From Pseudofrankia saprophytica (lineage in GTDB: Bacteria; Actinomycetota; Actinomycetes; Frankiales; Frankiaceae), in contig NZ_KI912267.1 in assembly GCF_000235425.2 (NCBI RefSeq), positions 1,175,849 to 1,229,189 of the forward strand: a stretch of DNA of 53,341 nucleotides, written 5' to 3'. Shown here piece by piece: positions 1-32,368 of the stretch (the first letter of the stretch is position 1; each line of letters opens with the position of its first letter). The position numbers and the translations under genes are program-made. Under the pieces are notes generated by a model, which had not been told where the DNA came from, did not search any database, and worked only from the letters and a program-made list of their open reading frames with translations.

Positions 1-641
1 TCGGCGCCGGCGGGCTGGTGGCGGCGCGGCCGCAGCTGGCGCAGCGAGCGCGCCACCGGCCGCGGCGAGGTGATCTCGCCGTCCATGGCCCGCGCCGGGG
101 GCCCGATCAGGTCGTGCACCGAGCGCATCACCTTTGGCTGGCGGGCCCGGTCCTCGCCGCGGAAGCCGGTCTCCAGCTCGCGGCCGTCCAGCGACCAGGC
201 GATCACCAGCAGCCGCCCCGGGGCGGCCACCTTGCCGGCGTGCGCGCGCTCCAGCCGGGCGCCGCGGACGGCCTCCCGGGGGATCCAGAACGCCGACGCG
301 CCGCGGTCGACCCGTATGCCAGCGTCGTGGACGGTGAGGTAGGCGCCGTCCCTGCCGGACAGCCCGCGGGCGGAGAACCATTCGAGCCACTGGCCGGCGT
401 CGGTCGTCCCCAGGTAGGCGCCGCGCAACGGCGCGGCGAGCACCGTGCCCGACTCCTGCGGCGGGGCGAGCAGCTCCGGCAGGCCCTCCTCCTGCTGGGC
501 GGCGCGGCGCCGCCAGGTCTGGCGCAGCCAGCCGATCACCGCGATCAGCAGCAGCACGATGCCGAAGACCAGCAGCACGCGCAGGCCGATCAGGCCGGCC
601 CCCGCGCCAGCGGCCACGACGTGGCCGGCGACCGGGCTCAT
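1..641 (-). CDS. PH-like domain membrane protein of the pyr operon (3' end beyond window)
   Basis: The reading frame opens at ATG 641-639, overlapping the pyrC stop (ATGA), and stays open to the left edge, so the gene is cut off. The visible product begins [12 protein letters not shown], then has one hydrophobic segment (about residues 15-37, LRVLLVFGIVLLLIAVIGW) followed by an Arg-rich stop-transfer stretch and a soluble domain. That domain has alternating strands (GAYLTVHDAGIRV, ASAFWIPREAVRGARLE, GRLLVIAWSLDGRELETGF), which fits the small PH-like/bPH fold proteins that commonly sit between pyrC and carA in actinobacteria. It is probably a single-pass membrane protein co-translated with pyrC. 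The role is unknown; the family assignment rests on context plus the strand pattern. Confidence 0.7.
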   Translation of the reverse strand, partial: MSPVAGHVVAAGAGAGLIGLRVLLVFGIVLLLIAVIGWLRQTWRRRAAQQEEGLPELLAPPQESGTVLAAPLRGAYLGTTDAGQWLEWFSARGLSGRDGAYLTVHDAGIRVDRGASAFWIPREAVRGARLERAHAGKVAAPGRLLVIAWSLDGRELETGFRGEDRARQPKVMRSVHDLIGPPARAMDGEITSPRPVARSLRQLRPRRHQPAGA

Positions 642-1975
642 ACGATCTTCCCGTCGAGCACCGTCGGCCGTCCGGCGAGGAAGGTCGCGTGTACCTGTCC
701 CGGCATCGTCATCCCCCGGTAGGGCGAGTTCCGGCTGCGGCTGGCGAACCCGGCGGGGTCGACAACCCAGCGCGCCTCCGGGTCGACGAGGGTCAGCGTC
801 GCGGCGGCGCCGACGTCCATCGAACTCCTGGCGTCAACCGGCACGTCGGGCAGGCCACCGATGCGGGCGGGCGCGAGCGCCATCCGCTCGGCGACGCCAG
901 CCCAGTCGAGCAGCCCGGTCGTCACCATCGTGTCGAGAACGATCGAGAACGCGGTCTGCAGCCCCAGCATCCCCGGCCGGGCGGCCGACCACTCGGTCTC
1001 CTTGTCCTGCGGGGCGTGCGGGGCGTGGTCGGTGGCGACGGCGTCGATGGTGCCGTCGGCGAGCCCGGCGCGCAGCGCCTCGACGTCCTCGGCGGTACGC
1101 AGTGGCGGGTTGACCTTGTACACCGGGTCGTAGGTCGCCGCGAGCTCGTCGGTGAGCAGCAGGTGGTGTGGGGTGACCTCGGCGGTGACCCGCCAGCCCT
1201 TCGACTTCGCCCATCGGATGATCTCCACCGACCCGGCGGTGGAGACGTGGCAGACGTGCAGCCTGGAGCCGACGTGCCCGGCTAGCAGCGCGTCACGGGC
1301 GATGATCGCCTCCTCGGCGACCGCCGGCCAGCCCGCCATGCCCAGGCGCGCCGAGCAGGTGCCCTCGTTCATCTGGGCGCCCTCGGTGAGCCGCGGCTCC
1401 TCCGCGTGCTGGGCGATGACGCCGTCGAACGCCTTGACGTACTCCAGCGCCCGGCGCATCAGCAGCGCGTCGGACACGCAGTGGCCGTCGTCGGAGAAGA
1501 CCCGCACCGCGGCGGCGCTGGTGGCCATCGCGCCGAGCTCCGCGAGCCGCTTCCCGGCGAGCCCCTCGGTGACCGCCCCGACCGGGCGGACCTCACAGTG
1601 GCCCGCGTCCCTGCCCAGGCGCCAGACCTGCTCGACGACGCCGGCGGTGTCGGCGACCGGGTGGGTGTTCGCCATCGCGAAGACGGTGGTGTAGCCGCCG
1701 AGCGCGGCGGACCTGGTGCCGGACTCGACCGTCTCGGCGTCCTCCCTGCCAGGCTCGCGCAGGTGGGTGTGCAGGTCGACGAAGCCGGGCAGCGCGTACA
1801 GCCCGTCGGCGTCGAGCACCTGGGCACCGGTCTCGGTCGCGTCCAGCGTGCCCGCGGCCGCGGTCTGAACGATCCGGCCGCCGGCGAGCAGCAGGTCGGC
1901 CCGGTCGCCGCCCAGCGGCCGCGCCCCGCGCAGCAGCCAGGCCTCGGCCGAACCAGATGCCCGGTCTGACGTCAT
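638..1975 (-). CDS. pyrC: dihydroorotase
   Basis: Cytosolic zinc amidohydrolase that cyclises N-carbamoyl-aspartate to dihydroorotate, the third step of UMP synthesis. The 445-residue product is the usual length for the class I (AllB/PyrC) type. The metal-binding [10 protein letters not shown] motif lies near residue 66, further His ligands are in VTPHHLLL, and the catalytic Asp motif is VATDHAPH. The gene begins at ATG 1975, overlapping the pyrB stop by ATGA, and its own stop overlaps the downstream PH-like gene, so the four pyr genes are translationally coupled. Expression probably follows PyrR control of the operon. Confidence 0.95.
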
Positions 1976-2913
1976 CTGGTGACCTCCCGCTCGTCGCGCT
2001 CGTCCGCCCCGCCCAGCAGCAGGTACAGGCAGGCCATGCGGACGCTGACCCCGTTGGCCACCTGCTCGACGACGGTAGACCGCGCGGAGTCGGCCACCTC
2101 CGAGGAGATCTCCATGCCGCGCACCATCGGTCCGGGGTGCATGACCAGTGCGTGCTCCGGAAGGGTGGCCGCGCGGTCCGCGTCCAGGCCGTACCGGCGG
2201 CTGTACTCCCGCTCGGTCGGGAAGAAGGCCGCCGACATCCGCTCCTGTTGCACACGCAACATCATGACGACGTCCGAGGCGGGCAGCACGGCGTCCAGGT
2301 CGTAGGAGACGTCCACCGGCCAGGCGGACACCCCGTGCGGTACCAGCGTCGGCGGCGCGACCAGCGTCACCTTCGCCCCGAGGGTGTGCAGCAGCCAGAC
2401 ATTGGACCGGGCGACCCGTGAGTGCAGCACGTCGCCGACGATCGTCACGGCGAGCCCGTCGAGCCGGCCGAGCCGGCGGCGGATCGTGAACGCGTCCAGC
2501 AGCGCCTGGGTGGGGTGCTCATGGGTGCCGTCGCCGGCGTTGAGCACGCTGCCGCGCACCCAGCCCGCGAGCCGGTGCGGGGCGCCGCTGGCCGGGTGCC
2601 GGCAGACGACCGCGTCGGCGCCCATCGCCTCCAGGGTCAGCGCCGTGTCCTTGAGGCTCTCGCCCTTGGAGACGCTGGAGCCCTTCGCCGAGAAGTTGAT
2701 GACGTCGGCGGACAGCCGCTTGGCGGCGAGCTCGAACGACGTGCGGGTACGGGTGGAGTCCTCGAAGAACAGGTTGACGACGGTGCGCCCGCGCAGCGTC
2801 GGCAGCTTCTTCACGGCGCGGCCCGACAGGCGCGCCATCTGCTCGGCGGTGTCGAGCACCAGCAGCGCGTCGTCGCGGCCCAGGTCCGCGGTGCTCAGCA
2901 GGTGGCGGTTCAC
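1972..2913 (-). CDS. pyrB: aspartate carbamoyltransferase catalytic subunit
   Basis: Transfers the carbamoyl group from carbamoyl phosphate to L-aspartate, the committed step of pyrimidine synthesis. The 313-residue product has the carbamoyl-phosphate loop STRTRTSFE (near residue 54), the HPTQALLD motif and the aspartate-binding [11 protein letters not shown]. No pyrI regulatory subunit is adjacent, as expected in actinobacteria. The start is GTG 2913, in a GTGA overlap with the pyrR stop, and the 3' end overlaps pyrC by four bases. Confidence 0.96.
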
Positions 2914-23671: not shown

Positions 23672-26600
23672 TCAGCCGCCCAGCAGCCGCGCGAGTCGGC
23701 GAAGGCGCAGGCCAGACGTCGGGTGCAGATCAGAACGCGCAGCCTCGGCCAGCAATGCCGCCGGCTCGGTCGAAACGAATCTGAGCTCGTCCAGCTCCTG
23801 TCCCCGCCCGGCCTCCAAGATCTCGATAGACGACCATGGTGCGCGGAGAACGGCCACCAGGCTGACGTTCATGATGGGCATCTCGATGACCGCCGTGGGT
23901 ACCGAGATGTCCACCTGGTCGGCGGGCAGCCCGAGCTCTTCGACGAACCCACGCCTTGCGGCATGGACGGCTGGGTTCTCACGCCCCGGCGCGAAGTCGT
24001 CGCCGGTCAGCTGTTCCTCGAAGCTGGCCGACCATCGTCCGGGCGCGTACGGGGTGCCTCGACCCCGGCGCGCCATCAGCACCTCGTCATCCGAGCTAAC
24101 GACGATGCAATGCATGCACGCAATGCCGGGCAGTTGGACAGCCCCACGTAGCCATCCCTCGATCATCCGATCCTGGTACTCACGTAGCCGTGGGTGCGCG
24201 CGCCGCAGGGCGCGGTGGAAGGCTGCACCCTGTTCCCAGGTCGTCGCCGCGACTGATACCTCCGTCACGCCGCTGTCGGACCTGGAAACCGCGCGGAAGC
24301 GGTACTTCGATTCCCAGCCCTCACCGACCTCGGCGTAGTCCTGATCGGTGGCGAATTCGGCCGCCTCCGGATCGATTGCCGCCTCCTCCGTCTCGACCAG
24401 GCCTACGACAACGCTGCTATTTCCGCTGTGGTCGCTGTGGGAAGGCTGCGCCAGCACCTCGAAACCGCCTTCGTCGACAAGGCAGTCCTCGGCCTTCGTG
24501 GACCTCGTCACCAGGTCGAGCAGCTCGCGCGCGAGCAGCGGGCGCCCCGCCGAGGCGGCATCGCGGGCAGCATCGACGACCAGCCAGCGCCGAGCGGCGC
24601 GCAGCGCGGGGGTCGGGGCATTGTCGATCTGCGTCGCGAGCGCTTCCCGGCACGCCTGCCGGACGTCGGCGGACAGCGGCGGACCGCCAAGCTCGTCGAC
24701 CAGCGCGGCGCGGGCTCGCGGATCCTCCGCGATGCCAAGGCACCTCGCGATGACTCTGCGTACGAACGTCTGCTGATGCGCGAAGCCGTCGATCAATGCC
24801 GTGAGCAGCTGGGGAGTCAGTTCGCCCCGGGCAATCCGCTCATATGCGCGGTCGGCGTAGGCCCGCACGACCCGCCAGTCGGAGTACTGACCCCGTTCGT
24901 CAAGCGGGTTGAGGTACCTGACGATCTCTTCTTCGTCAACCTCCGGAGCGGCGCCCGACGCCTGGCCAGCAAGGCGTGCCACGCTTTCCACGGCGGCCCG
25001 CCGCGTCCGGGGATCGAAATCCAGCTCCACGATGATCCGCTCCAGAATGCCGATGGATGACGCACGCTCCGTGTCGCCGAACTCCTGACCGAACTCGCCC
25101 AGTGCCTCGGCGACCTCGCCGAGAACCTGATGGTCGGCCCCCGACTCCAACTCGGCGAGCGCGAACTCCTGGAGTGCCAGCAGCGCATCCGGGGTCCGGT
25201 ATCTCGCGAGCGCCTCGACGAACCGTCGGCGCAATGACCAGCGAACCAGCCCATCGCGTAACACCGGTATCGCGCGCTCGGGCCGAGCAGTGTGCCAGTC
25301 CTCGACCACTTCGAACACGGACGCCAGCGAACTGGCCGCCTCCGGAGTGACCCGCGCCGGCGGGCCAAGCCCGCTCGCCCTCGCGTCGGCTTCCGACCTG
25401 GGCGGATTCACCTGATCGCCAGCGAGACAGTCGAGAACGAGCGGCAGCAGGACGTCGAACTTGTCGCGCAGGACGTAGGTCGCTGCCCATGCCCGAGCGT
25501 TCCAGCCCGGGCTGAGCCGCTTCCGATCCAGCATGTCCACGAGCTTGTCGAACGCCCCCCGCTTCAGGTCCTCGTCGGAGGCGTCGTGTGCGACCTGCAC
25601 GGCCATGGCGAGCAGTGGCCAGTCGCGGTCATCACCCGCGTCCCACGACCACCAGAGCGCATCGACGGCAGTACGCGCCATCTCCGCGGCGAGCGCGACA
25701 CCCAGCCGCTCCCTTACGGCACGCTGGACCAGGGCGTGCACCCGCACCACGCCGTCATCGACCGTCACGAGACTGAGGCGATGCAGGCACCGCAACCCGT
25801 CCCGCGCGTGGTCGGCCGTCACCTCGTCTCCGTCATCGGCACCCGCGACCCATGCGCTCGTGAGCCAACGTAGAGCGGCCGGCGCCTCGAAGACCCTAGC
25901 GGGCGCACCGTTGGGGTCGAGCAGGCTCGCGAGCCGCAGCAGCGGCAGGGCCAGCCCCCTGGGCGCCAGCTCGTTCGCGATCTCGATCGACAGAGACCAG
26001 GTGACGTCGATCGTTCGCTGGTACTGGTCGGGGACAGCGTCAGCCTCGGGGAAGAGCTCGGCAAGGCGGCGACGGCGGTCCGTGAACCGTCGGCGGTAGT
26101 CGGCACACGTCAGGTCCCGGTCCCGCATGAAGGCGACCGCCTGGCCAAGCGCGAGCGGCAGGTTCGCCAGGTCCCGCGCGACTCCCTCTACGTCATCCGC
26201 GAGCCGTGGGTGCTCGGCCAGCGCCGAGCGCAGATAGGTCCTCGCCTCAAGGTCGGTGAACACGCCGAGGACAATCATGCGTCGATTTTCGGTGACCAGC
26301 GCCGCGTCACGACGACGGGTCGTGACGATGGTGCGCCCCGAGCCCGTGGCAGGTGGCCACAGGTCACGCAGGTGGCCGGGGGCGGTAAGGTCGTCCAAGA
26401 CGATCAGCCAACGTCGCGAGGTGGTCGCGAGCCACGCCAGGAATCTGCGGGCCGCGTCCTCGGACGCATGTTCGTCGGTGCCGGTGAGCTGCCGCGCGGC
26501 CTGCGCATACTGGGCCACGACCGTCTCACGCGACGAGGCGGAGACCCACATCAGGAGATCCACAGTGCCCGCGCCGAGCGCCCGCCTGGCGTACGCGGCG

Positions 26601-27274
26601 GCCAGCTGCGTCTTGCCCACCCCACCGAGCCCCGCAAGCACCTGCGAGAGCACGGCCGTCCGCCCGCTGGCGGCGATGTCATCAAGAGCGCGCGCCTCCG
26701 CGCGCTCCAGAAAGTAGCCAGCCGGCGCGGGTACCACACCCACCTGAATCGGCGGAGGCGGTGGCACTCCAGGGAAGATCGGTCCAGGAAGGCCTGCTTC
26801 CGGAAAGACAGGCGGCACGGTCGGCCGGGATCGACCGGCTACCGCCGCCGCGAGCCTTTCCAGAAGGCGAGCCCTGGCCGCGGCCTCGTCGATACCGAAC
26901 AGGTCAAACGAGACGACCTGCCCGAGGAGCCCCGGGAGCTGGCATTCCGCGATCCGGACCGGTATCAGCCGACGTGCGGCACCCACCGGATCAGCCGCCA
27001 AGGCCGCAGACCAGCCGGCCTGGGCATACGTCGATTCCAGGTAGGCACCGGAAATCAATGCGATCGTCCGGTCCCCGCTGGCGGCACCCCGTTGCGTCGA
27101 TGCGACCCAGTTCGTCCCCGGGACGAAGTCCCACGCCTCCACGAGCACCCGATAGCCCACGCTCTCCAGCTGCCAGGCGACCCATTCCGCCCAACCCTGA
27201 TCGGCCCTCGCGTGGGAGACGAAGAAATCCAGGGGCCCCTGGGTACTTCCCGCAGTGGTCTCGCCGCCGAGCAT
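23672..27274 (-). CDS. TIR / NB-ARC / helical-repeat / Nudix STAND protein
   Basis: Likely cytosolic immune-type sensor of 1200 aa. Domains in order: TIR-like (about 15-145, DFFVSHARADQGWAEWVAWQ); Pro-rich linker; NB-ARC with P-loop GLGGVGKT (215-222), Walker B LIVLDD (290-295), TTRRRD and NLPLALGQA; a winged-helix region; about 350 residues of HEAT/armadillo-like helices; and a C-terminal Nudix-like domain (about 1035-1170). The Nudix box end RGFVEELGL keeps the Glu pair (1112-1113), but the first Glu of the box is shifted. In the TIR, the position of the NADase Glu (SxxYxxSxWCxxE alignment) is Gly87 in YLESTYAQAGW. The start is ATG 27274. It is a single gene with no obvious operon partner, and its GC looks lower than its neighbours'. 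Whether the TIR or Nudix part is enzymatically active is unproven. Confidence 0.85.
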   Translation of the reverse strand: MLGGETTAGSTQGPLDFFVSHARADQGWAEWVAWQLESVGYRVLVEAWDFVPGTNWVASTQRGAASGDRTIALISGAYLESTYAQAGWSAALAADPVGAARRLIPVRIAECQLPGLLGQVVSFDLFGIDEAAARARLLERLAAAVAGRSRPTVPPVFPEAGLPGPIFPGVPPPPPIQVGVVPAPAGYFLERAEARALDDIAASGRTAVLSQVLAGLGGVGKTQLAAAYARRALGAGTVDLLMWVSASSRETVVAQYAQAARQLTGTDEHASEDAARRFLAWLATTSRRWLIVLDDLTAPGHLRDLWPPATGSGRTIVTTRRRDAALVTENRRMIVLGVFTDLEARTYLRSALAEHPRLADDVEGVARDLANLPLALGQAVAFMRDRDLTCADYRRRFTDRRRRLAELFPEADAVPDQYQRTIDVTWSLSIEIANELAPRGLALPLLRLASLLDPNGAPARVFEAPAALRWLTSAWVAGADDGDEVTADHARDGLRCLHRLSLVTVDDGVVRVHALVQRAVRERLGVALAAEMARTAVDALWWSWDAGDDRDWPLLAMAVQVAHDASDEDLKRGAFDKLVDMLDRKRLSPGWNARAWAATYVLRDKFDVLLPLVLDCLAGDQVNPPRSEADARASGLGPPARVTPEAASSLASVFEVVEDWHTARPERAIPVLRDGLVRWSLRRRFVEALARYRTPDALLALQEFALAELESGADHQVLGEVAEALGEFGQEFGDTERASSIGILERIIVELDFDPRTRRAAVESVARLAGQASGAAPEVDEEEIVRYLNPLDERGQYSDWRVVRAYADRAYERIARGELTPQLLTALIDGFAHQQTFVRRVIARCLGIAEDPRARAALVDELGGPPLSADVRQACREALATQIDNAPTPALRAARRWLVVDAARDAASAGRPLLARELLDLVTRSTKAEDCLVDEGGFEVLAQPSHSDHSGNSSVVVGLVETEEAAIDPEAAEFATDQDYAEVGEGWESKYRFRAVSRSDSGVTEVSVAATTWEQGAAFHRALRRAHPRLREYQDRMIEGWLRGAVQLPGIACMHCIVVSSDDEVLMARRGRGTPYAPGRWSASFEEQLTGDDFAPGRENPAVHAARRGFVEELGLPADQVDISVPTAVIEMPIMNVSLVAVLRAPWSSIEILEAGRGQELDELRFVSTEPAALLAEAARSDLHPTSGLRLRRLARLLGG

Positions 27275-27350: not shown

Positions 27351-27638
27351 CTAGCCGCCCGCGATGGACGGGATCACCTGGATCTCGGTGCCGTCGCGCA
27401 GCGGGGTGTCCGCGCCGGCGAGGCGTCGGCACTCCTCGCCGTCGACGAACAGGTTCACGTAGCGGCGCAGCGCGCCGCGCTCGTCGCGCAGCCGCCGCTC
27501 CAGCGCGGGATGGCGGGCGGCGACGACGTCGAGCGCGGCGGCGAGCGTCGCCCCGGCCACCGGCAGTTCCAGCTCCACCTGGCGCGCGCCGCCCGCGTGC
27601 TGGCGCAGCACCCCGGGCAGCAGCACCGTCACCCGCAT
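27351..27638 (-). CDS. MoaD/ThiS family sulfur-carrier protein
   Basis: 95 aa ubiquitin-like fold protein. It begins MRVTVLLPGVLRQHAGG and ends VIPSIAGG, the C-terminal Gly-Gly that is adenylated and thiocarboxylated in this family. RYVNLFVDGEE is the family's central strand. The ATG at 27638 lies within the end of a small upstream frame with a strong ribosome site. The upstream BNR-repeat gene next to it is a common actinobacterial pair. No moaE or E1-like enzyme is adjacent, so it may serve a pathway other than molybdopterin. A decayed duplicate is at 23559-23626. Confidence 0.9.
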   Translation of the reverse strand: MRVTVLLPGVLRQHAGGARQVELELPVAGATLAAALDVVAARHPALERRLRDERGALRRYVNLFVDGEECRRLAGADTPLRDGTEIQVIPSIAGG

Positions 27639-27697
27639 GGCCGCCCCTTCCCCTGCTGCCGGGGACGGGGGCTGCCGGAATCTCGAACGAAGAGCAT
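27629..27697 (-). CDS. possible 22-residue leader peptide coupled to moaD
   Basis: ATG 27697 is preceded by AGGAGGTG with a 7-base spacer, one of the best ribosome sites in the window. The frame encodes 22 Arg/Gly/Pro-rich residues (start MLFVRDSGSP) and stops at TGA inside the first codons of moaD, an overlap of 10 bases. It may act in translational coupling; the peptide itself has no recognised motif. It could instead be chance sequence after a relocated ribosome site. Confidence 0.4.
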   Translation of the reverse strand: MLFVRDSGSPRPRQQGKGRPCG

Positions 27698-27732
27698 CTC
27701 GGCACCTCCTGTGGCCCGCTGGCTTTGGCCCG

Positions 27733-28824
27733 TTAGACCACGGCCGCGCGGACGCAGGTGACGTCGGGCAGGTGGGCGGCGACCCGGACCCAGCTGTCGC
27801 CCTCGTCCCGGCTGGCGTAGACCTCGCCGGTGCGGGAGCCGAAGTAGACCCCGGCCGGGTCGGCGTCGTCGGAGCACATCGAGTCGCGCAGCACGGCCGT
27901 CCAGAAGCCCTCCTCGGGCAGGCCGGCGGTGCGCGGCTCCCAGGAGGCGCCGGCGTCCTCGCTGCGGTACACCCGGCAGCGGCCATCCGGTGGGAAACGC
28001 TCGCTGTCGGCCTTCAGCGGGAAGTTGTAGATGACGTCGCGTCGGCTCGGGTGGGCCACCATGGCGAACCCGAAGTCGCTGGGCAGGCCATCAGCGATCG
28101 AGACCCAGCTGTCGGCGCCGTCGTCGCTGCGGTAGACGCCGCCGTGGTTCTGCGCGTACAGCCGCTCGGGCCGCACCGGGCAGGGAGCGACCTTGTGGAC
28201 GCACTGGCCGAACTCGGGGTACGGGTCGGGAAGATAGCCCGCCTTGATCCCCTTGTTCGCCGCCGACCAGTTCTCGCCGCCGTCGAGCGTGCGGTAGACG
28301 CCGCCCGACGACATCGCCACGGTGATCCGCTTGTGGTCGACCGGGTCGGGAAGCACGGTGTGGATCGCCTGGCCGCCGTAGCCGGGTTCCCAGTCCGGGC
28401 GGTGCGGGTGGTCCCACAGCCCCTGGACCAGCTCGAAGCTTCGCCCGCCGTCCGTAGAGCGGAACAGCGCTGACGGTTCGACGCCGGCGTAGACGACGTC
28501 GGGTTCGCCGACCGGCCCCGGAGTGATCTGCCAGACGCGCCGCAGCGCCGTGTCGGTGCCCGTGGGGAACGCGATCGGCGCGGTCGCCGGCTCCCGCCAG
28601 CTCGCGCCCAGGTCGTCACTGATCGCCACGTTCGGCCCGAACCACTCGCTCGACAGCCCGACGAGCACCCGGGGCACCGGGCCGCGGGTGTCGATCGCCG
28701 CCGAGTACACCTCGACCATCGGGTGGTGCGGGCCGGTGACCTCCCAGCTCGCCCGCCCGTCCCGGCTGCGCGCCAGCCACAGCCCCTTGCGCGTGCCGAT
28801 CACCAGCAGCACCGTCGCCACCAT
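27733..28824 (-). CDS. BNR/sialidase-like repeat protein (WD40/YVTN-type propeller)
   Basis: 363 aa of Asp-box repeats: S-D-G-x-S/A-W or D-G-G-x-x-W/F motifs occur at SRDGRASWEV, SDDLGASWRE, STDGGRSFEL, TLDGGENWSA, SDDGADSWVS, SEDAGASWEP and SRDEGDSWVR. This is enough for a six- or seven-bladed propeller. There is no signal peptide. Sialidase catalytic residues (Arg triad, Tyr/Glu pair) are not evident, so enzymatic activity is unlikely to be sialidase. The start ATG 28824 has GGGAGG 6 bases upstream. The gene is followed by the small leader frame and moaD, the usual partner in actinobacteria. The function is unknown. Confidence 0.85.
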   Translation of the reverse strand: MVATVLLVIGTRKGLWLARSRDGRASWEVTGPHHPMVEVYSAAIDTRGPVPRVLVGLSSEWFGPNVAISDDLGASWREPATAPIAFPTGTDTALRRVWQITPGPVGEPDVVYAGVEPSALFRSTDGGRSFELVQGLWDHPHRPDWEPGYGGQAIHTVLPDPVDHKRITVAMSSGGVYRTLDGGENWSAANKGIKAGYLPDPYPEFGQCVHKVAPCPVRPERLYAQNHGGVYRSDDGADSWVSIADGLPSDFGFAMVAHPSRRDVIYNFPLKADSERFPPDGRCRVYRSEDAGASWEPRTAGLPEEGFWTAVLRDSMCSDDADPAGVYFGSRTGEVYASRDEGDSWVRVAAHLPDVTCVRAAVV

Positions 28825-29140: not shown

Positions 29141-29803
29141 GTGAGCGAGCGGGAACTACGGCTGAACTCGCTGGGACGATATGCGAAGACGTCGTCGCGG
29201 CTGGTGCTGGAGGAGCACGGACACTGCGAGGTGCCAGCCGGCTGCGGCGGAGTGGTGATGCGGTGGCGCGACCCTCGGGCAGGCACCCCGTTCACCATGC
29301 GGATGGTTTCCCGCGGCTACGTCACCGACATGTTCCTGGACGGCGCCCGGCCGCCCTCGGGTCACACCATCGTCCCGTTCGGCGAGCACGTGGTCGCGTT
29401 CGCGATCAGCGGGTTCCCCGCGGGCGTGCCCTTCCTCGCCTTCTCGGGCACTACCCGCGCCGAGAGCCAGGTCATTCCGGACGTCGAACAGCAGTTCCCG
29501 CAGGTGGTCCTGTCGGCCGCCGACGGGACCTGGCGCTACCGGCGGACGGCGCCGGACGACTACACCTGGATGCTGCCCGGCTTCGACGACAGCAACTGGC
29601 CGGCGATGGTCGCTTTGGAGTGGCCCGCGCCCGACCCCGGTGAGCGTCCCGACTACCAGGTCACCTCGCTCACCAGCCAGGGCGCGCTCGGGCTCGGCAT
29701 CGAGATCCCGGACCGCGAGCTGCGATATCCCACCGACGAACCACGGCGGGCCTGGATCCGCAGGACGTTCACGCTGGTTCCTCCGCCCGAGGTGGCGCGG
29801 TGA
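29141..29803 (+). CDS. unknown protein with jelly-roll-like segment, first gene of a radical SAM/SUMF1 module
   Basis: 220 aa from GTG 29141 (VSERELRLNSLGRYAK); no family recognised with certainty. The second half, DGTWRYRRTAPDD..WMLPGFDDSNWPAM..AWIRRTFTLV, has the FDDSxW and terminal RRxFxL pattern of the beta-sandwich domains found at the N terminus of many glycoside hydrolases. There is no catalytic module, signal peptide or membrane segment. Two Cys occur near residues 29-35 (HGHCEVPAGCGG). The stop overlaps the radical SAM start (GTGA), which argues for stoichiometric or sequential expression; it could be the substrate of the two downstream enzymes. The ribosome site at the chosen start is weak. 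Confidence 0.65.
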   Translation: MSERELRLNSLGRYAKTSSRLVLEEHGHCEVPAGCGGVVMRWRDPRAGTPFTMRMVSRGYVTDMFLDGARPPSGHTIVPFGEHVVAFAISGFPAGVPFLAFSGTTRAESQVIPDVEQQFPQVVLSAADGTWRYRRTAPDDYTWMLPGFDDSNWPAMVALEWPAPDPGERPDYQVTSLTSQGALGLGIEIPDRELRYPTDEPRRAWIRRTFTLVPPPEVAR

Positions 29804-31218
29804 GCCCGATCGCCCGGCCACCGCTGGTCGTGGTCCCGCAGCATTTCGGCAGCACGGTCTTCGACCGTCGCACCTCCCGATATCTCCCGTTCGACGCCGC
29901 GGCCACCGCGGTGCTGACTGAGCTGGCCGAGGCGCCCATAGGCGAGGTGCTCGCGCGCCTGGCCGACGACGAGCGGCGAGACCAGGTCATCCGTTTCTAC
30001 GAGGACTTCTACGACCGCGGGTTCTTCACGGTGGACGGCCGGCTCGCAGGAACGGTCCTCGAGGGTCTGGACGTGCCTGCGGATCATCTCGTCGGCCCGC
30101 TGGCCGTCCATCTCGAGGTCGTGGGCAGCTGCAACCTCACCTGCACCCACTGCTTCGCCGGTGACCTGCCGCGGCGCGGCGAGCGGCGGCTCGCTCTCGA
30201 CGAGATCGACGACCTGTTTGCCCAGATGGCGTCACTGGGCAGTTTCCGGCTGGGTCTGACCGGCGGTGAGCCGCTGCTGCGCAAGGATCTGTTCGCTGTG
30301 ATCGACCGGGCGCTCGCGCACGGACTCGCCCCCTGCGTCACCACGAACGGCCTGCTCATCACGGACGAGGTCGCCCGCGAGTTCGGCCGGCGCGAGCTGG
30401 TCTGGCTGAACGTGAGCCTCGAGGGCGCGACCGCGGCGACGAACGACGCCGTCCGAGGCGAGGGCACCTTCGCCCGGGTGCTCGACCGGCTGGCGGTGCT
30501 GCGCCGCCACGCCCGCTTCACCCTGGCGTTCACGATCATGCGCAGCAATCTGGCCGAGATCGAGGCCTGCGCGCGGCTGGCGCACCAGGTGGGCGCGGAC
30601 ACGGCCGTCTTCCGGCCGCTCTACCCGGTGGGCGTGGCACGCGAGAACCTTGACCTCATGCCGACGTTCGCCGAGTACAGCTCCGCGCTGCGCACGCTCT
30701 CCGCGCTCGGCGACCTCGAGATCGAGGAGGAAGACGATGAGGGGGCCGGCCTGGATGTCCGCCACATCGACCCGTTCAGCCCGTTCTCCCGAGACGAGTC
30801 CCAGTCGGTGATCTACCAGAACTACGGCTGCGGAGCGGGCAACCTGGTCTGTTCCGTCTCGGTGTCCGGCCAGGTCAACCCGTGCAGTTTCCTCGGCCCC
30901 GAGTTCGACGCCGCGAACATCAGGAACCGCTCGCTCGCCGACGTCTGGCACGACAGCGCCGGTTTCCGGGCCATCCGGGCGCTGCCGCCCACGGAGCCCA
31001 CCAGTGCCCACGGCACCACCGCCACCTTCGCCGGCGGCTGCCGAGCCCGCGCGCTGGCCTTCAACGGCTCCATCCACGCACCTGACCCGTGGATCACCGA
31101 ACACGCGCACGCCGAGCTGGCACTGGCCGGCGCGGTCCGCAACCCGCTGGCGATCGTCGACGTGTCCGTGGGCCGCGGCCACGGCGGCCAGGGCACGCCG
31201 TGCGGCGGCTGTGGGTGA
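29800..31218 (+). CDS. radical SAM/SPASM protein with PqqD-like N-terminal domain
   Basis: 472 aa. Residues about 12-85 (STVFDRRTSRYLPFDAAATA, VIRFYEDFYDRGFFTVDG) look like a PqqD/RRE peptide-recognition fold. The radical SAM core follows, with the 4Fe-4S motif C111-NLT-C115-TH-C118 and the SAM-binding LTGGEPLLR. A SPASM-type Cys cluster (NYGCGAGNLVC, VNPCSF, GGCRARAL) lies at 330-430, and the protein ends GQGTPCGGCG. This architecture is typical of enzymes that modify ribosomally made peptides or proteins. The 5' end overlaps the 220-aa gene and the 3' end lies 4 bases before the SUMF1 gene. The substrate is unknown. Confidence 0.88.
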   Translation: MSPIARPPLVVVPQHFGSTVFDRRTSRYLPFDAAATAVLTELAEAPIGEVLARLADDERRDQVIRFYEDFYDRGFFTVDGRLAGTVLEGLDVPADHLVGPLAVHLEVVGSCNLTCTHCFAGDLPRRGERRLALDEIDDLFAQMASLGSFRLGLTGGEPLLRKDLFAVIDRALAHGLAPCVTTNGLLITDEVAREFGRRELVWLNVSLEGATAATNDAVRGEGTFARVLDRLAVLRRHARFTLAFTIMRSNLAEIEACARLAHQVGADTAVFRPLYPVGVARENLDLMPTFAEYSSALRTLSALGDLEIEEEDDEGAGLDVRHIDPFSPFSRDESQSVIYQNYGCGAGNLVCSVSVSGQVNPCSFLGPEFDAANIRNRSLADVWHDSAGFRAIRALPPTEPTSAHGTTATFAGGCRARALAFNGSIHAPDPWITEHAHAELALAGAVRNPLAIVDVSVGRGHGGQGTPCGGCG

Positions 31219-31222
31219 GTCG

Positions 31223-32368
31223 ATGACTGAGAAGACCGCGAACGGCGAGTACGCCTGGCTGCTGGAGGATCACGGCACGGCCGGGGACGCGCGCACCCTG
31301 TTCCAGATCGCCAACCGGCTGGCGGCCGCCGGCGACGACCGGCTGGCCGCGACAGCCTTCGACCGGGCCTTCGCCGTCGATCCGGACGACGAGGAGATCG
31401 CGCTCGCCCGAGCCGTGCATCTCGACGGCCTCGCGGTCGAGGATCATGGCCTGCGGTTCTGCTACGTCCCCGCCGGCACGTTCCTCATGGGTTCGATGGA
31501 CGGAGAGCCGGACGAGCGGCCGGTGCGCCCGGTCCGGCTCGGCGACTACTGGCTGTCCGAGACCGCGGTGAGCTGGGCGACGTTCTGCGATGTTCTCGGC
31601 TGGGAACCGGCGCCCGTCAGCACCCCGCCCCAGGAGCTGGAGCGTAAGGACGCCTTCATGCTCCACCAGGGCAACAAGATCCGCCGGCAGTACTGTGAGG
31701 ACGGGACCCGCCGGGCCCGGGACTGGCACGCCCATGCTCCCGACGCCAGGTACACCTCCGGTGCCGGAGGACCGACGCTGTCCGCGGTCAGCCTGTTCGG
31801 CAGCCCGGACCGGGGTGGCTCCCAGCGTCCCTGGACATACGACGGCAAGCCCATGGTCAGTGTCGCCTGGGATCAGGCCGCGGCGATGTGCGCCGCGATG
31901 AGCACCGGCGCCGTCCAGTACCGCCTGCCCACCGAGGCCGAATGGGAGCACGCCGCCCGCGGCGGCTTCAGCGGCCGCCGCCGTCCCTGGGGCGACGAGC
32001 CGCCGACGCCGGAACTCTGCGACTTCGACCGTTTCGACGCCTTCGCGATCCGGCCGATGCGCGCACTACCGCCCAACGGATACGGCCTGTTCGGGATGGC
32101 CGGCTCGGTGTGGGAGTGGACGGCCGACTGGTACGACGCGGAGTACTACCAGCACGGCCCGGCCGACAACCCACGCGGCCCGGAGTCCGGAGAACACCGG
32201 GTGCTACGGGGAGGATCCTGGGCCGACTGCGCCGACGTGCAGACGGTGTCGTTCCGGATGTCGCGGTCCCCCGACATGTCACGTTCCACGCCCGGACATA
32301 CGCGGGGCATGCGTTCCTACATGGCCGCGAACATCGGCTTCCGGATCTGCCGGACAGCCGCCGTCTGA
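31223..32368 (+). CDS. SUMF1/EgtB/PvdO-type protein with N-terminal TPR-like helices
   Basis: 381 aa. Residues 1-62 resemble a TPR pair (ARTLFQIANRLAAAGDDRLA, AFDRAFAVDPDDEE). From residue 75 it is a formylglycine-generating-enzyme fold: FCYVPAGTFLMGSMDGEPDE, YWLSETAVSWATF, YRLPTEAEWEHAARGG, GSVWEWTADWY, VLRGGSWADC and NIGFRICR. The copper-binding Cys pair of true FGE (SYxCxxxxC) is not complete; only one Cys is near that site. An EgtB/PvdO-like or non-enzymatic role is therefore as likely as sulfatase activation, and no sulfatase is nearby. It is the last gene of the module and its stop is one base from the stop of the convergent oxidoreductase gene. Confidence 0.87.
   Translation: MTEKTANGEYAWLLEDHGTAGDARTLFQIANRLAAAGDDRLAATAFDRAFAVDPDDEEIALARAVHLDGLAVEDHGLRFCYVPAGTFLMGSMDGEPDERPVRPVRLGDYWLSETAVSWATFCDVLGWEPAPVSTPPQELERKDAFMLHQGNKIRRQYCEDGTRRARDWHAHAPDARYTSGAGGPTLSAVSLFGSPDRGGSQRPWTYDGKPMVSVAWDQAAAMCAAMSTGAVQYRLPTEAEWEHAARGGFSGRRRPWGDEPPTPELCDFDRFDAFAIRPMRALPPNGYGLFGMAGSVWEWTADWYDAEYYQHGPADNPRGPESGEHRVLRGGSWADCADVQTVSFRMSRSPDMSRSTPGHTRGMRSYMAANIGFRICRTAAV

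Follow-up and report, generated by a model that had tools for sequence, protein, structure and literature searches.

A single-chain TIR, NB-ARC, HEAT and Nudix protein of Pseudofrankia saprophytica with glycine at the TIR glutamate position and a probable NUDT22-like C-terminal module

The minus strand of the window, the whole 53,341-nucleotide stretch of Pseudofrankia saprophytica DNA analysed in this study (contig NZ_KI912267.1, positions 1,175,849 to 1,229,189), carries at 23672..27274 a 1200-residue open reading frame (ORF), with an ATG start and zero internal stops, within which Pfam matches and motif positions indicated successive TIR, NB-ARC, HEAT and Nudix domains. The TIR domain (residues 17-138; 26861..27226, on the minus strand like every further feature of this ORF; TIR_2, E 7.8e-31) precedes an NB-ARC domain (residues 213-384; 26123..26638; E 1.5e-8) in which the P-loop (GLGGVGKT at 215), Walker B (LIVLDD at 290) and GLPL-like (NLPLAL at 371) motifs of a STAND/NB-ARC switch were all present. 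There follow a winged-helix-like region (residues 442-524; 25703..25951), indicated by a weak DUF7779 match below the cut-off (E 0.014), and a helical-repeat region; HEAT_2 was matched in three stretches of the ORF, the best of them lying in that region at residues 803-880 (24635..24868; E 2.3e-7, or 4e-10 on the piece alone). The C-terminus is occupied by what is termed here the NUDT22-like module (residues 960-1200; 23675..24397), of which the Nudix core is secure and residues 960-1050 are uncertain: Pfam located NUDIX at residues 1056-1172 (23759..24109), with 19.1 bits on the whole protein, under the 21.1-bit cut-off, and 22.5 bits (E 1.2e-4), over it, on the last 222 residues alone.

This order of four domains in one chain, proposed in a first-pass annotation of the same DNA, was upheld by the Pfam data and by the single 1200-residue ORF. 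Third-position GC content was 0.77-0.84 in seven of eight ORF segments and 0.62 in the 40-residue linker 161-200 (compared with 0.97 in the neighbouring gltX), and since it exceeded second-position GC in all eight, marginally so in the linker, the 1200 residues were taken to form one coding frame. Scanned with NCBIfam, the ORF gave a sub-cut-off match of its NB-ARC region to an FxSxx-type model plus two chance-level models and nothing else, and with PADLOC weak matches, four of five being to TIR-containing Argonaute partners.

Searches with the full-length protein found matches in 40 of 97 related genomes and, among the matches listed, all but the window itself were confined to residues 1-578; the ten best of those listed from other genomes were 44-55% identical, and the window's own genome held at least six further places matching the TIR and/or NB-ARC part. 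Residues 197-540 matched the FxSxx-COOH TIR-NB-ARC-TPR family (NF040586) at E 4.3e-45; however, the 154.5-bit score fell short of the 300-bit cut-off, Pfam detected HEAT and Nudix in place of TPR, and the TIR glutamate was lost (vide infra). ORFs were extracted for ten NB-ARC relatives, of which nine were scanned with Pfam, the tenth being omitted for its size: all nine combined NB-ARC with TPR, and at their N termini one had TIR, three had BTAD and three had HTH_31 (in one of these just below the cut-off). The window protein is thus a common NB-ARC core with a different tail. Its C-terminal 222 residues matched at E <= 0.001 in one of the 97 genomes, its own, a weak second match (L022) being judged probable chance, with no relative apparent in the inspected sequence, and residues 560-960, the HEAT half, had no relative in 57 other genomes (one match among 58, its own). 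HEAT plus Nudix behind NB-ARC was absent from the 34 other genomes of the order examined, just one of which held the module, there as a TIR-Nudix protein; together with the zero count of NB-ARC among 80 module loci considered below, this bore out the earlier suggestion that the fusion is unusual.

TIR NADases make ADP-ribose, and many Nudix enzymes hydrolyse it. The first-pass annotation had envisaged a coupled NAD producer and consumer in one chain, an arrangement that is now disfavoured. In an alignment of 23 TIR rows, the catalytic-glutamate position was Glu in 21, Val in one and Gly in the window protein (Gly87; codon GGC, 27014..27016), so that Gly87 stands against Glu in 21 of the 22 other rows, or in 20 of 21 distinct other sequences, two rows (L002 and L065) being one protein. 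Because GGC would have to change at two bases to become a Glu codon, a single sequencing error does not explain it. The window protein lacks the residue by which a TIR NADase is recognised, and cleavage of NAD by its own TIR domain, feeding a Nudix in the same chain, is unlikely. The Glu-bearing rows included four TIR paralogues from the same genome (L058, L060, L061 and L062), and the glutamate was also retained in the TIR-Nudix fusion L078. A second related TIR row without glutamate was the one with Val (L076, ORF 2-2671, minus strand), the loss not being unique to the window.

An AlphaFold model of the window tail had a Nudix-like core at residues 1051-1199, with ten-residue means of the predicted local distance difference test (pLDDT) of 63-91, while residues 960-1031 fell below 50 and the overall mean was 61.5. 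All 50 of the Foldseek matches listed from the PDB were Nudix-superfamily structures, albeit with modest TM-scores (0.33-0.46 by query length); they included 2fkb (E. coli, a possible Nudix hydrolase), DR0079, isopentenyl diphosphate (IPP) isomerase, NUDT22 (rank 6) and, at rank 23, ADP-ribose diphosphatase. These matches, and the Pfam score over the cut-off on the C-terminal piece, support the Nudix fold first assigned to the C-terminus. The altered Nudix-box helix RRGFVEELGL (residues 1107-1116; 23927..23956) was located from sequence and model, box residues 1107-1114 falling on model helix 142-155 (residues 1101-1114). It departs from the canonical GX5EX7REUXEEXGU but keeps the EE pair (R1108-G-F-V-E1112-E1113-L-G-L). 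The earlier observation that the upstream glutamate is missing was correct, the expected position eight residues before R1108 being Asn1100 with Glu1099 adjoining, but incomplete, as the REU glutamate has also gone (Gly1109).

A family profile was seeded from a Streptomyces-like match (L023), a Rhodoferax plasmid match and L041; in its first version it matched 8 of 393 genomes of the class at E <= 0.01, including two source genomes and L050 (E 0.004), which was set aside as probably due to chance. The weak matches L024-L038 (with L022, E 8e-4 to 0.01) were likewise set aside as probable chance, L026 being inspected and showing no relative. A closer alignment gave 80 loci, the best 80 of 98 confirmed in a genome-contig collection, among which L099 and L119 (one stop each within the match) were excluded, 48 of the remaining 78 plus the window making up a 49-row module alignment; L055 and L048 were omitted from later alignments as their module frame disagreed with the best coding frame. 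When the window's own tail was used against the genome contigs, none of 261 candidates was confirmed; the family profile yielded no confirmed case among 61 candidates in viral contigs, and no match in phages. With a seven-row profile, matches were obtained in 2 of the 35 genomes of the order and in 3 of 396 from the phylum, and on that account the distribution of the module is patchy.

Kinship of the window tail to this family was indicated by several comparisons. A profile of the 48 relatives built without the window detected its ORF at E 2.4e-9; 1000 shuffled tails and all other window ORFs of at least 60 residues gave no match at E <= 10. From hhalign came a like result, which gave 95.7% probability over residues 1057-1181. 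In a phylogenetic tree, the window's Nudix core grouped with the module family (support 99/91) and not with 25 other Nudix domains from its own genome (25 of 26 places, L166 being left out as a look-alike of L165), its sister being the Rhodoferax plasmid protein (98/87). The L041 row was flagged for letter make-up unlike the rest, and L056 fell outside the group starred in the tree. Two adjacent Nudix domains of the window's own genome, L177 and L183 (G000:C1:7061672-7062539), were sisters (99/92) with boxes degenerate by eye.

Throughout the 49 rows, the REU glutamate was replaced by Gly or Ala, and the box Arg plus four Glu were kept, the window included (R1108, E1087, E1112, E1113 and E1160). 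The invariant core residues, in window numbering, were D1062, R1070, W1081, S1084, E1087, R1108, E1112, E1113, L1114 and E1160; E961 was invariant too, though the alignment there is unsure. Of the near-invariant columns, the window retains just 13 of the 24 in the core and 19 of the 57 across the entire module, which makes it a distant member of the family. The plant enzyme AtNUDX9 was reported to be an active pyrophosphohydrolase despite a substituted Nudix motif (PMC4566977). The first-pass annotation had suggested that a domain with such a box might bind without cleaving; an altered box would not by itself show that catalysis has been lost.

The nearest known structure to the family is that of human NUDT22. 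A model of the L078 module (pLDDT 93.7) had an N-terminal beta domain ahead of the Nudix core, and its top six PDB matches, over nearly the whole length, were NUDT22 chains (E 3.9e-17 to 3.3e-15; TM-score 0.62-0.68 by query and 0.66-0.72 by target; root-mean-square deviation 4.3-5.2), the next match being at 2.3e-7; against PDB sequences, the family profile likewise placed NUDT22 first (E 0.008). Plant NUDX9 resembles the family in its substituted motif (PMC4566977). However, identity in the structural matches to NUDT22 was 17-19%, the bacterial members are joined to conflict-type domains unlike NUDT22 and NUDX9, and in the window's own case the assignment is secure just for the Nudix core, the family profile match beginning at about residues 1056-1057. 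When eight module members were run against Pfam with a threshold of E <= 10, NUDIX was matched by the window and by none of the other seven, and the best NCBIfam match for 28 members was IPP isomerase (E 0.0044), so that the Nudix nature of the family rests on models and profile links.

The company kept by the module was assessed in the 80 loci, a sample that leans heavily on Streptomyces. A hydropathy-predicted transmembrane helix preceded the module in 39, a TIR domain in one (L078) and a caspase in two (L079 and L115); 33 were standalone copies and five were other or unclear (L082, L099, L116, L119 and L123). Pfam confirmed TIR_2 in L078 and Peptidase_C14 in L079 and L115, and phmmer over the 80 loci likewise gave one TIR, two caspases and zero NB-ARC. 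A third caspase fusion, L053 (genome G713), was identified in another genome by sequence reading rather than by Pfam. The module was C-terminal in every fusion found, whether with TIR, caspase, a predicted transmembrane helix or, in the Rhodoferax protein, two hydrophobic stretches discerned by eye. Directly upstream of all three caspase fusions (L053, L079 and L115) lay an EACC1 gene, assigned by coordinates and frame length, an arrangement that fits the EACC1-caspase two-gene conflict system of Kaur et al. (PMC7159879), although the window's genome had no EACC1 at E <= 0.001. As for a signal synthase beside the TIR-Nudix and one caspase-Nudix fusion, the three genes compared with the PDB proved to be an efflux pump, a haloperoxidase and an epoxide hydrolase. 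In L116 and L123 the N-terminal region had no Pfam match at E <= 0.1, and by eye resembled actinobacterial STAND leaders.

Among the standalone copies (L124-L157 without L142), BLAST found a divergent homologue of the partner of L132, a protein of about 1500 residues called NACHT by Pfam, beside 28 of 33, this reference included, a stricter count than the 33-locus neighbour cluster obtained by single linkage. In the remaining five, the neighbour of L127 had a Walker A motif and DACHSG (E 0.93 to the reference), and the reference went unmatched at L128, L148, L151 and L157, the first two of which lie near a contig end. Caspase-type motifs (YWTGHG and DACFSG/DACHSG) occurred in part of 29 NACHT-partner loci and are the sole basis for the term caspase-like, Pfam making no caspase call at the N-terminus of the partner. 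An upstream neighbour, ThiC by sequence reading, was conserved in 25 of 47 non-standalone loci; the fused Streptomyces copies with a transmembrane helix look like chromosomal core genes, and this conserved synteny makes their company less telling. Overall, the module is probably a nucleotide-binding or nucleotide-cleaving unit shared by actinobacterial conflict proteins.

In STAND proteins the part behind the repeats is usually the receiving end. The favoured explanation, to which a probability of roughly 0.4 was assigned, is that the window protein is a STAND switch whose TIR-NB-ARC core is of a kind common in actinobacteria, with HEAT repeats and a mobile NUDT22-like module in the place of its relatives' TPRs. 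The HEAT and Nudix half would be the receiving end and would bind a nucleoside diphosphate-X compound or a version of it altered by phage; binding might release the NB-ARC switch and allow the protein to oligomerise, and the output would then pass by TIR-TIR contacts to other, glutamate-bearing TIR proteins instead of by its own cleavage of NAD. This explanation is preferred because the NB-ARC motifs have been kept while the TIR glutamate has been lost, with glutamate-bearing paralogues in the same genome, and because the module is C-terminal in every fusion, the window core groups with the module family and the standalone copies have NACHT-type neighbours. The likeness to NUDT22 points, by inference only, to a nucleotide-sugar type of ligand; Nudix domains of the NrtR type have been described as ADP-ribose sensors (PMC9503650).

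Several points weigh against a receiving role. The missing TIR glutamate might just as well be a sign of decay, the Arg and Glu residues that are conserved would fit an enzyme too, and for Kaur et al. the variable domains at the C-terminus behind EACC1-caspase are effectors and not sensors (PMC7159879). There is no evident defence island, the scanned neighbours being gltX, a SAMP1/MoaD-like gene, a BNR-repeat gene, and radical SAM and FGE-sulfatase-like genes, among which no partner NLR was named. Lastly, the Rhodoferax protein alone reached just 26% hhalign probability to the family and its row in the tree was flagged for letter make-up, making its sister placement less sure than its support. 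The receiving role was nevertheless ranked above the rival explanations that follow.

The strongest of these, unlikely but a serious contender, is that the Nudix domain is itself the effector, which on STAND oligomerisation would hydrolyse a cellular nucleoside diphosphate compound such as a nucleotide sugar and stop the infected cell, the glutamate-less TIR being a mere scaffold. The invariant box Arg and four Glu are what an enzyme would have, but Gly or Ala stands at the REU glutamate position in every one of the 49 rows, the part behind the repeats more usually receives than acts, and the TIR-Nudix protein L078 keeps its TIR glutamate, so its Nudix need not be the effector. L078 matches NUDT22, which hydrolyses UDP-glucose (PMC10101856), over nearly its full length, EACC1 lies upstream of all three caspase fusions, and the same source that treats the C-terminal variable domains of EACC1-caspase proteins as effectors names Nudix among vWA-associated effector domains (PMC7159879); mutation of the NUDIX domain of Cap16 is, however, said to leave toxicity (PMC10419184). 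The receiving role remains the preferred reading.

Cap16 of CBASS is described as a transmembrane-containing protein with a NUDIX domain, mutation of which is said not to have abolished toxicity (PMC10419184), and the Rhodoferax relative has, by eye, a like layout of two hydrophobic stretches followed by Nudix. The family members scanned differ in that Sa_NUDIX (PF18167) was unlisted for all eight at E <= 10, and PADLOC gave no match at that threshold for three. A search for Sa_NUDIX found no match in 198 genomes of the phylum, nor in 14 control genomes, and is uninformative on absence. No CD-NTase gene was named among the scanned genes of the window, where no search aimed at CD-NTase was made.

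Plant sensor NLRs of the RRS1 type, like the window protein, join TIR, NB-ARC and repeats to an extra C-terminal domain and have a TIR that is probably unable to act alone. A bacterial NLR-like core that is itself common, with HEAT and Nudix for TPRs and a lost TIR residue, is reminiscent of them, and it is conceivable, if improbable, that the window protein is a bacterial counterpart of these integrated-domain sensors: an enzymatically dead TIR, a Nudix serving as bait or ligand sensor and drawn from a little-labelled NUDT22-like family, and other TIR proteins that kill. The comparison differs in that no partner NLR was named beside the window gene, and it does not imply kinship.

Less probable again is a decaying or recently shuffled chimera with no settled function. 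Its case lies in the fusion being the sole one among the order's 35 genomes examined, the lost glutamate, the retention of just 13 of 24 core and 19 of 57 whole-module near-invariant columns, and a HEAT half without relatives in 57 other genomes; the 1200 open codons, the coding bias in seven of eight segments, the NB-ARC motifs and the ten invariant core residues of the 49-row alignment, all retained, argue otherwise. There is little likelihood that the protein is a non-immune signalling or regulatory STAND protein, with the module family engaged in housekeeping sensing of nucleotide sugars: the upstream neighbour read as ThiC in 25 of 47 non-standalone loci and the housekeeping-like or metabolic neighbours of the window suit such a role, but the TIR and caspase fusions, the EACC1 genes upstream of the latter and the NACHT-type neighbours do not. 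The first-pass model, in which the Nudix consumes or senses an ADP-ribose-type signal coming from the TIR of the same chain, is very improbable, for although that chemistry is known (PMC9503650) and ADP-ribose diphosphatase occurs among the fold matches of the tail, Gly87 occupies the TIR catalytic position and the nearest structure to L078 is NUDT22, a UDP-sugar hydrolase (PMC10101856).

TIR-NB-ARC proteins are already known, as are Nudix domains among conflict-system effectors (PMC7159879), as ADP-ribose sensors (PMC9503650) and in Cap16 (PMC10419184). A literature search, covering the titles and abstract beginnings of the papers listed, found no report of a TIR-NB-ARC-Nudix chain, and none of NUDT22-like bacterial proteins forming a family linked with TIR, caspase, membrane or STAND conflict proteins. 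The Nudix-like family is nearest in structure to human NUDT22, and Pfam and NCBIfam gave poor coverage of the members examined. Were the integrated-domain reading correct, human NUDT22 would have immune-type bacterial relatives. Identifying the ligand of the family would reveal a signal or target new to bacterial conflict systems.

Two further gene arrangements were recorded in the window. Directly upstream of the TIR gene and on the same strand, a SAMP1/MoaD-like (ThiS) ORF lies beside the BNR-repeat ORF (27354-28824, minus strand), and at 29800-32368 on the plus strand a radical SAM/SPASM ORF overlaps the FGE-sulfatase-like ORF, possibly as a peptide-modifying pair.

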